A DNA stretch of 64,000 bases from Burkholderiales bacterium. Lineage in GTDB: Bacteria > Pseudomonadota > Gammaproteobacteria > Burkholderiales > Ga0077523. The stretch's first letter is position 1, and each line of letters starts with the position of its first letter. Positions 45,493-48,512 of this stretch are shown here, piece by piece. The notes beneath the pieces were generated by a model. The model searched no databases. It saw only the letters and a program-made list of their open reading frames with translations, and was not told the origin of the DNA. Location of the stretch: the NCBI GenBank assembly GCA_022843925.1, contig JALHMS010000009.1, positions 29,413 to 93,412 on the forward strand, given 5' to 3'. The translations under genes and the position numbers were made by a program.

Positions 45493-46001
45493 CGGCGCCA
45501 CCGCACGACCAGCGCCGTGCACGCGAGCGGCAGCCAGATCCAGAGCATCTCGGAGAGCAGCACGGTGACGCCGCGGGCGCCGAAGAAATGCGCGCCGATC
45601 GGCGACACGGCCACGGGCCGCCACGGCGCGAACCACCGGGCGTCCGACCACGGCCAGAGCAGCGCCACCCCCAGGCCGCCGTTCGTCAGGGCATCGAGCA
45701 GGGGATGGGACACCGCAGCCACGAAGAGGAAGGTGCCGACCGACAACAGCTTGGTGCGGACGGGCCGCAGCCACGCCAGTGCCACCAGCGCCGTGACCAG
45801 CGCGAAGGCGATGGAGTGCGTGAACCCACGGTGACCGAAGGCCGACGCGTACGGCACACCGGCCACGAAGGCGATCACGTCCGCATCGGGCAACACGGTG
45901 AGCCCCATGGCGGTGACGACCGTACGGACGTCAGGGCGCTGCCGGCGCGTCGCCGTGCGCCAGGCGAGCGGCACGACGACGTGCGTGAAGATGGTGGGCA
46001 T
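45489..46001 (-). CDS. YdjM-like membrane-bound metal-dependent hydrolase (DUF457)
   Basis: A 170-residue inner-membrane protein of the DUF457/YdjM family. Conserved metal-binding positions are visible in TVLPDADVI, FGHRGFTHS and SHPLLDALTNGG. Several hydrophobic helices surround them. Family members are annotated as membrane-bound hydrolases without a proven substrate (YdjM is under LexA control in E. coli). Between phaC and the MFS gene. Confidence 0.82.
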   Translation of the reverse strand: MPTIFTHVVVPLAWRTATRRQRPDVRTVVTAMGLTVLPDADVIAFVAGVPYASAFGHRGFTHSIAFALVTALVALAWLRPVRTKLLSVGTFLFVAAVSHPLLDALTNGGLGVALLWPWSDARWFAPWRPVAVSPIGAHFFGARGVTVLLSEMLWIWLPLACTALVVRWRR

Positions 46002-46040
46002 GGGTCCGCGACACCGCGGTGCGGAGATCGGCGGCGTCGA

Positions 46041-48512
46041 TCACTTCGGTCGCTTGCGCTTGCTGCCTGCCGGCGCTTCCGGTGCAGGGGCGCGCCGCGT
46101 CTCGGTCGTCTGCGCCTTGAAGAGCGCGCTGATGAGTTCCGCGGGTGTCCCGGGTGCCGGACGCGCTGCCTTCTTCCGGGGTGCCGGCGAGGCGGCCTTG
46201 GTCACCTTGCCAGCCTTTGCAGCCTTTTTCGGAGCGTCGGCCTTGACCGGCCTGGTCGTCTCGACCTTCGCCCCCTTGGCTGCCTTCGCCTTGGGTGCCT
46301 TCGCGACCTCGACGACCTTGGCCGGCTTTGCGGCCTGGACCTTGGCCGACTTCGCCACCTTGGCCTTCGCCGGTTTCCCGGCCTGGGCCCGTTCGACCGG
46401 CGCCGCGGGCGGCGGCGCAGCGGACGGCGGGGCGCTGGTGACCGGCGCGGCCCTCGCCGGCTTCTTCGCGGTGGGGGTGGCGCCGGATGCAGGTCCTGCC
46501 ACCTTTCTCGGTGCGGGCGCCTTCGCCTGCGGTGATGGTTTTGCAGCCTTGCCGGTTGCCGGCTTCGTCGTCGCCGGCTTGCGCGGCGCCGCCGGTACTG
46601 CTGCCGCGGTGGGGGCGGCGGTGGGCGCGGTTGCTGTCGGCGCGACTGTCGCCTCCGGCTTCACAGGCGTCGCCCGGCCCCTGGGCTGCGCATCGAGTCG
46701 CAGCTTCGCGTAGCTGCCGGGGGCATTCTCGATCACCTTCAGGCCGCCGCCGCCCGGCACGCGCGCAGCGACCTTTCCACCGCCGAACCCGGCGACCCAG
46801 GTGCCCCAGTCGTCCCACCACGACCCTTCGCGGCGTTCGGCGCCGGCCAACCACTTCTCGGGATCCGCGTCGAGTTGCGGGTTGGTCCAGTAGCAGTACT
46901 TCTGGGCGACGGGCGGGTTCACGATGCCGGCGATGTGACCCGAGCCGCCGAGGACGAACCGCACCGGACCGCCGAAGAGCCGGGCACCCGCGTACGTGGA
47001 TTTCCACGGCGCGATGTGGTCCTCCATCGTCGAGATGAAATACGTCGGGGTGTCGACCTGCCCGAGATCCACCGGCGCCCCGCAGACTTCGAGTGCACCC
47101 GGCTTCGTGAGCAGGTTCTTCACGTACATGTTCCGCAGGTAGAAGGCGTGCATCTTCGGCGGCATGCGCGTGGAGTCGGAGTTCCAGAACAGCAGGTCGA
47201 ACGGGAACGGATCCTTGCCGAGCAGGTAGTTGTTCACGACGAACGACCAGATGAGGTCGTTGTCGCGCAGCATGTTGAAGGTGCCCGCCATGTCGGAGCC
47301 CTCGAGGAAGCCGCGCGCCGCCATGCGCTTCTCGAGGTTGGCGACCGTGGTCTCGTCGACGAACACGCCCAGCTCGCCCGGTTCGGTGAAGTCGATCATC
47401 GTGGTGAAGTAGGTGACGCTCTTCACGCGGTCGGGCCGGCCGGCCGTCTCGAGCCACGACATGAGGCAGGCCGTCAGCGTACCGCCGAGGCAGTACCCGA
47501 TGAGGTTCACCGAGGCCTCGCCGGTGGCGCGCTCGATGGCGTCCATCGCAGCCACCGGGCCTTCGCGGAGGTAGTCGTCGAAGGTCTTGTCGGCGTGCCG
47601 CTTGTCGGGGTTCACCCACGAGATGACGAAGACGGTGAGCCCGCGATCCACCGCCCACTTCACGAAGGAATTCCGCGCGCGGAGGTCGAGGATGTAGTAC
47701 TTGTTGATCCACGGCGGGACGATGAGCAGCGGCGTGCGATCCACCTGCGGCGTGGCGGGTTCGTACTGGATGAGCTGCATGAGATCGTTCTGGTACACGA
47801 TCTTGCCGGGCGTCGTGGCGACGTTCACGCCCAGTTCGAACGCCTCGTAGTCGGTCATGCTGATCGCGAGCTTGCCGTGGCCGCGATCGAGGTCCTTCAG
47901 CAGGTGCTCGAGACCCTTCAGCAGATTCTGTCCGCCGCTCTCCTGCGTGGCCTTCAGCACCTCGGGGTTGGTCAGCACGAAGTTCGTCGGGGCGAGGGCG
48001 TCGACGAACTGGCGCGTGAAGAAGTTCACCTTGCGCGCGGTCTTGTCGTCGAGGCCCTGGGTCTCCGCCACCGTCCGCTGCACGTGGTCCGCCGCGATCA
48101 GGTACGACTGCTTGATGTAGTCGAAGACGAAGTTGTTCTGCCACAACTCGCTCTTGAAGCGGTTGTCGCCGCGCGAGGGTTCGCGCACCGGCGTCGGCTG
48201 ACCGCCCGCGGCCTTCATCACCATGGCGCTCCATAGCTTCAGGTAGTCGTCCCAGGCGCGGACCTGCATCTCGGCGAGCTTGCCGGGGTTCGCCATCAGC
48301 TTGCTGCCCAGTTCCATGAAGGCCCGGTTGACGCCGAGATCCTCCAGGCTCTGGGCCACCTCGGCGTGGGGCTGCTTCTCGATGAACTCGCTCACCACGC
48401 GGGCCGATCGCTCCGCGATATCGGCCAGCGATTTCTGCAGCGCCTCCGGATCGATCTGGGGCGTGTTCGGGATTGGGGACTGCGGGTTCGGGGACTTCGG
48501 GGCGTCTGCCAT
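46041..48512 (-). CDS. phaC: Class I polyhydroxyalkanoate synthase with long histone-like C-terminal tail
   Basis: An 823-residue PHA synthase, against roughly 590 in typical class I enzymes. Residues 1-607 are a complete synthase: the lipase-like box GYCLGG with nucleophile Cys341, Asp498 in EDHIAPW, His526 in GSGHIAG, and the normal end GSWWDDWG...NAPGSYAKLRL. Residues 608-823 are an added tail made almost wholly of Ala, Lys, Pro, Val and Thr. It has many AAKPAK/KAAK-type repeats, a short segment GTPAELISALFKAQ, and a basic end SKRKRPK. Such tails occur in histone H1-like proteins and in the phasin PhaF, where they bind DNA. The enzyme polymerises 3-hydroxyacyl-CoA into granules. phaA/phaB are not adjacent. 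Confidence 0.92.
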   Translation of the reverse strand: MADAPKSPNPQSPIPNTPQIDPEALQKSLADIAERSARVVSEFIEKQPHAEVAQSLEDLGVNRAFMELGSKLMANPGKLAEMQVRAWDDYLKLWSAMVMKAAGGQPTPVREPSRGDNRFKSELWQNNFVFDYIKQSYLIAADHVQRTVAETQGLDDKTARKVNFFTRQFVDALAPTNFVLTNPEVLKATQESGGQNLLKGLEHLLKDLDRGHGKLAISMTDYEAFELGVNVATTPGKIVYQNDLMQLIQYEPATPQVDRTPLLIVPPWINKYYILDLRARNSFVKWAVDRGLTVFVISWVNPDKRHADKTFDDYLREGPVAAMDAIERATGEASVNLIGYCLGGTLTACLMSWLETAGRPDRVKSVTYFTTMIDFTEPGELGVFVDETTVANLEKRMAARGFLEGSDMAGTFNMLRDNDLIWSFVVNNYLLGKDPFPFDLLFWNSDSTRMPPKMHAFYLRNMYVKNLLTKPGALEVCGAPVDLGQVDTPTYFISTMEDHIAPWKSTYAGARLFGGPVRFVLGGSGHIAGIVNPPVAQKYCYWTNPQLDADPEKWLAGAERREGSWWDDWGTWVAGFGGGKVAARVPGGGGLKVIENAPGSYAKLRLDAQPRGRATPVKPEATVAPTATAPTAAPTAAAVPAAPRKPATTKPATGKAAKPSPQAKAPAPRKVAGPASGATPTAKKPARAAPVTSAPPSAAPPPAAPVERAQAGKPAKAKVAKSAKVQAAKPAKVVEVAKAPKAKAAKGAKVETTRPVKADAPKKAAKAGKVTKAASPAPRKKAARPAPGTPAELISALFKAQTTETRRAPAPEAPAGSKRKRPK

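Follow-up and report, generated by a model that had tools for sequence, protein, structure and literature searches.

The window analysed here, a stretch of 64,000 nucleotides from a Burkholderiales bacterium, carries a gene that, judging from its sequence, is best read as encoding the principal class I PHA synthase in a genus resembling Burkholderiales, extended at the C-terminus by an arm specific to this lineage. We consider it probable, if by a modest measure, that this arm is a DNA tether placed on PhaC rather than on PhaM, so that the synthase would anchor nascent granules to the nucleoid through its basic tail; granule positioning is otherwise credited to separate tether proteins, namely PhaM, PhaF and PhaH. 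The gene and its parts, in positions of the window, are the following:

46041..48512, minus strand: phaC, class I PHA synthase with a C-terminal extension (823 aa; a single open frame of 823 codons plus stop).
46704..48296, minus strand: class I core, TIGR01838, residues 73-603 (profile match).
46044..46697, minus strand: Ala/Pro/Lys-rich basic tail, residues 606-823, predicted to be disordered and proposed as a DNA tether (composition, conservation, AlphaFold).
46107..46148, minus strand: conserved 14-residue segment TPAELISALFKAQT, residues 789-802 (ISA[LI]F in 11 of 11 tails; helix modelled at 790-800 with low confidence).
46044..46106, minus strand: C-terminal end past the helix, last residues GSKRKRPK (translation).

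The core is matched by TIGR01838 over residues 73-603 with an E value of 3.3e-229 and 761.7 bits (cut-off 622.65); in Pfam, both PhaC_N (PF07167) and the alpha/beta hydrolase domain (PF00561) are above cut-off, and the best solved PHA synthase chain aligns with residues 40-607. The sequence-only reading had taken the synthase to be complete by residue 607, with the frame running on beyond it, and was correct in both coordinates and frame, the TIGR01838 match ending at residue 603. Cys341, Asp498 and His526, which we take to be the catalytic Cys-Asp-His triad, are invariant in a 25-row alignment. The named relatives sharing the tail of the window protein are metagenome assemblies labelled Betaproteobacteria, Burkholderiales or Pseudomonadota bacterium; in the 98% relative L005 the genes near phaC follow the same order by eye.

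The tail is taken here as residues 606-823, that is 218 residues (two more than the 216 counted earlier), of which 30% are Ala, 17% Pro and 15% Lys; its net charge is +37, and its pI is 11.61 versus 5.58 for the core. In the AlphaFold model, built on the 25-row alignment, pLDDT stays below 50 over residues 609-823. The description of the tail as histone H1-like holds for its composition and fails as a family assignment, since neither HC2 (PF07382) nor any other H1-type family in Pfam or NCBIfam matches the protein at E values up to 1; nor is the protein matched by NF043076, the PhaM domain, or by PF05597, the PhaF/PhaI phasin domain. No further copies of the tail are found in its own genome among the matches listed at E 0.001, a search in which masking of low-complexity sequence may hide some. 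Antisense to the tail lies an open frame of 271 aa (45898-46713, plus strand), with a similar frame of 187 aa in L005; most probably it merely mirrors the low-complexity coding sequence on the opposite strand.

The conservation of the tail was followed in the window's own family, represented in our sample by one genus with 12 genomes. A synthase of the window type scores above cut-off in 11 of these, and in all 11 it bears a tail of 123-227 aa, with a pI of 10.4-11.7 and a net charge of +15 to +37; K/R-rich ends, recognised by eye, are found on the other genus tails as well, and the Lys share is 7% in the tail of L043 (15% in the window tail). The twelfth genome, 79% complete, yields merely a fragment of a second PhaC type. 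This second PhaC, read from 10 genomes of the genus and 36-45% identical to the first over the aligned part, extends 3-21 residues past the core (one partial gene is included in this set and the broken copy of G010 is left out). Given that the tail is present in 11 of 11 genus synthases of the window type and missing from the second PhaC, it is neither a frameshift nor something that all PhaC proteins of the genus share.

The substitution pattern agrees with a maintained frame: between the window gene and its nearest relative, dN/dS is 0.04 for the core and 0.41 for the tail, and in two further pairs, which have one sequence in common, the tail gives 0.20 and 0.27. The tail frame is under selection, loosely. 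That the tail stems from a frameshift due to sequencing, which the sequence-only reading had named as a possible refutation, or due to assembly, or from an accidental joining with an adjacent gene, has a negligible probability. Nothing was found in favour of it, and tails of the same kind in 10 other genus genomes with the synthase, together with the excess of silent changes in frame, refute it. The proposal that the tail is a low-complexity expansion devoid of specific function draws on the short repeats present in the linker, on its differences in length and on its fast change (dN/dS 0.23-0.44 in the three pairs when the motif described below is removed); we hold it to be very improbable, in view of dN/dS values below 1, of the charge that is kept, of the terminal helix that all 11 genus tails have and of the presence of tails in three families.

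The short predicted helix near the end is the best-conserved part of the tail. The pattern ISA[LI]F is present in 11 of 11 genus tails, 26-46 residues before the end, and in none of 22000 shuffled tails; over the 14 codons of the motif the three pairs (two with a common sequence) show 3, 3 and 5 silent changes and no amino-acid change. In the AlphaFold model, residues 790-800 form the sole tail helix of at least four residues, coinciding with the motif, and the ten-residue blocks at this helix score up to 39, the maximum of the tail and still low. In the window's own genome a degenerate pattern for ISALFxxQ occurs in two places, phaC and one that reads ITAIFRPQ. The suggestion that the segment GTPAELISALFKAQ could be a further functional contact is thus well supported by this conservation, and the helix may, as a weaker inference, be a docking site for PhaM, for a phasin, for another synthase or for a protein of the nucleoid.

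The same observations are the main asset of a different explanation, in which the tail would be mainly a protein-recruiting arm: its helix would bind a granule partner, be it a phasin, the short PhaM or a further synthase molecule, while the basic linker would serve as a solvated spacer. The helix is indeed the most conserved element, while the linker varies in both length and sequence (the whole tail spanning 123-227 aa). We regard this explanation as rather unlikely, yet as one to be taken seriously: a positive charge, needless for a mere spacer, is present in 11 of 11 tails, and the tails of families f39 and f19, which are without the motif, mostly retain K/R-rich ends as judged by eye.

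The distribution of PhaC tails outside the genus was read in a sample of 300 genomes of the order, 204 of which contain a PhaC match (above cut-off in 191). The 49 PhaC loci inspected are the top scorers together with long frames, and are not a random draw. Tails longer than 100 aa occur in three of them, all of f39; in f19 the tails measure 48 aa in two loci and 22 in a third, while in f13 seven of eight loci have 19-38 aa past the core, mostly A/P-rich, and the remaining loci end 1-15 aa past it. None of the tails read in f19 and f39 contains ISA[LI]F, though most of them have K/R-rich ends by eye. Two of the f39 tails (L101 and L108) have in common another segment, TLESTIDLLSAAA, followed by a K/R-rich end, which is perhaps another docking helix; the third (L088) is without it. 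In a tree of 63 cores, from which six order loci with identity below 50% were excluded, f1, f19 and f39 form one clade (support 100/99) and all 17 members are tailed, with lengths of 22-228 aa; the simplest reading of this tree is a single gain of the tail, whose length changed later. A tail as a general feature of PhaC was considered and rejected on the class sample described below, in which four of the frames listed exceed 700 aa; the other order loci read have at most 38 aa past the core, and the second PhaC of the genus has no tail. The expectation that tailed synthases might exist in other genomes is borne out to the extent that the tail is not unique to the window genome; among the loci read, it marks a clade of three families.

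The partner proteins bear on what such a tail would do. PhaM (NF043076) is present in 10 of the 12 genus genomes, the other two being 79% and 64% complete, so that the separate PhaM, which the sequence-only reading supposed a tailed synthase to make unnecessary, is not missing, though the PhaM of the genus is without a basic tail. In the window genome PhaM is about 87 aa long, counted from the chosen ATG of a frame that is open further upstream, and passes NF043076 with an E value of 2.1e-24. Past the PhaM domain there are 10-15 residues in the genus (10 of 10), 9 in f39 (2 of 2) and 21 in f19 (2 of 2). PhaM of f4, f8, f10, f18, f49 and part of f31 mostly extends for 89-291 aa past the domain (a gene of f4 and another of f10 are cut off at the edge of the stretch read); these extensions contain Trp-Trp or Trp-Phe and often finish in a K/A/P-rich end. 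In f3, f17, f21 and parts of f11 and f31 the extension is of 50-97 aa, without the Trp-Trp or Trp-Phe motif. Altogether, PhaM was found in 167 of the 300 order genomes, and 96 ends were read, 58 with at least 50 aa and 34 with fewer than 25; these ends belong to the top scorers, the genus and the longer open frames, and the tally is no frequency. Many long PhaM, such as those of L128, L129, L136 and L142, have a Trp-Trp motif like AWWNLLQ.QF between the domain and the basic end; the short PhaM read have neither this motif nor the basic end.

None of the families read was seen to have both a PhaM tail and a PhaC tail, the PhaC tails of several PhaM-tailed families being known from frame lengths or from loci below 50% identity alone. 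In many of the Burkholderiales families read, both proteins are tail-less, so that such a tether is not obligatory. The pairing of a tailed PhaC with a short PhaM is suggestive and amounts to no significant association: with a PhaC tail that arose about once, and with numerous families in which both tails are lacking, no statistical connection between tailed PhaC and short PhaM is claimed. As to phasins, the view that no separate PhaF would be needed fits the window genome, in which no PF05597 phasin was found; its two Phasin_2 proteins are both without a long basic tail. The same genome encodes, on L238 (G000:C32), a free-standing HC2-type histone-like protein with KKPAAKK repeats, adjoining by eye an apparent ribonucleotide reductase small subunit gene; an HC2 search of this genome lists only this protein, other than PhaC.

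The best-supported explanation of the conserved tail and helix, of a PhaM devoid of a basic tail and of the lack of a PF05597 phasin appears, from these comparisons, to be the tether on the synthase. The arm would begin with a disordered linker of Lys, Ala and Pro, followed by a single short helix of amphipathic character and then by a basic end; the linker would bind chromosomal DNA non-specifically, like the ends of PhaM and PhaF, and the synthase itself would keep each nascent granule on the nucleoid, the granules being thereby shared out to the daughter cells and the short PhaM being left as synthase partner or activator only. Counting against this proposal are a Lys content of 15% (7% in L043), by eye far under that of the HC2-type KKPAAKK protein of the same genome, the failure of any histone family model to match the tail, f19 tails of just 22-48 aa, and the lack of the helix motif in f19 and f39. 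Composition alone cannot pick among polyanions, and the tail might instead bind polyphosphate or RNA, or tune granule coalescence by its charge; this we judge distinctly improbable, since PhaM and PhaF, the nearest counterparts with ends of this sort among the granule proteins studied, are reported to act on the nucleoid (PMC9049629, PMC13052382).

A more detailed scenario, that in this clade PhaM was cut back to (or kept as) a tail-less activator while PhaC acquired an arm that binds DNA together with a novel helix for docking, uniting synthesis and anchoring in one polypeptide, is conceivable and in our opinion doubtful. If the tether does sit on the synthase, a lineage that keeps a tail-less PhaM would separate the activation and anchoring roles of PhaM, each of which could be tested alone, and a synthase with its own anchor would offer an easy means of controlling how many granules PHA-producing strains form and how these are partitioned.

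In Cupriavidus necator, PhaM complexes with PhaC and the lysines of its histone-like C-terminus are credited with the attachment of granules to the nucleoid (PMC9049629, PMC13052382); an earlier study could not settle whether granules come off the nucleoid when PhaM is lost, and mentions PhaR as another protein that might link the two (PMC3556143), which we count as a further point against the proposed tether. There the tether is a protein of its own, whereas PhaM of the window genome has the conserved domain and no tail, the tail being on PhaC. Pseudomonas putida PhaF likewise tethers granules through a histone-like C-terminus (PMC9049629, PMC13052382); it resembles the window synthase in having a disordered basic C-terminus on a granule protein, with AAKP motifs (two by eye in the window tail), and differs in being a PF05597 phasin, of the family not found in the window genome.

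The sequence-only reading knew of no described synthase of this type; one was in print in 2021. PhaC2 of Cobetia is a class I enzyme whose C-terminus, basic and disordered, measures 380 aa and has a pI of 10.34 in strain MC34; a weak similarity of this end to HC2 was obtained with CDD under less stringent criteria. The role of PhaC2 as a nucleoid anchor replacing PhaM is a speculation of the authors, whose abstract leaves DNA binding to later work in vitro or in vivo (PMC8686332). Both proteins continue past a class I core with an extended, basic and disordered region. The HC2 match, weak in Cobetia and missing from the window tail at E values up to 1, comes from unequal tests; moreover, Cobetia PhaC2 has a SYCIG box and a genome reported to be without a PhaM homologue, while the window sequence has a GYCLG box, a conserved terminal helix and a tail-less PhaM. 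A synthase with a basic tail is thus already known; what is new with respect to this precedent is a lineage within Burkholderiales, signs that the tail is under selection, a helix conserved near its end and a PhaM without a tail.

A different DNA-binding module, the helix-hairpin-helix, recurs in other granule proteins. Caulobacter PhaH is a granule phasin with a C-terminal DNA-binding helix-hairpin-helix (PMC13052382), an H3TH hit is mentioned for Halomonas PhaC2 (PMC8686332), and the disordered C-terminus of Haloferax PhaC includes a helix-hairpin-helix as a putative DNA-binding module, the haloarchaeal extension being reviewed as indispensable for full enzyme activity (PMC12028471, PMC7137286). 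The haloarchaeal enzymes are class III, archaeal and equipped with this module, in place of which the window PhaC has a basic tail. In a class sample of 274 genomes, with at least 79 matched and at least 40 above cut-off, four frames exceed 700 aa among the matches listed: the window gene, G059 (tail of 1 aa), and G376 and G446, whose tails are of other kinds; stretches L234 and L235 of this sample contain no PhaC. L227 (G376:C13) is a PHA synthase with a K/A/P/E-rich tail of 131 aa, in which there is no Pfam match. In L228 (G446:C19), a class I synthase, a K/A/P linker leads to a C-terminal helix-hairpin-helix (HHH_5, E 6.5e-07), and a gammaproteobacterial MAG encodes another class I synthase (L038, 4971-7091, plus strand) with a K/A/P linker and a C-terminal HHH_5 (E 6e-07). 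A PhaH-like helix-hairpin-helix, absent from the window PhaC, is thus fused to PhaC in L038 and L228, and these two fusions speak against the statement, made in a 2025 paper, that the motif is absent from bacterial PhaC (PMC12028471).
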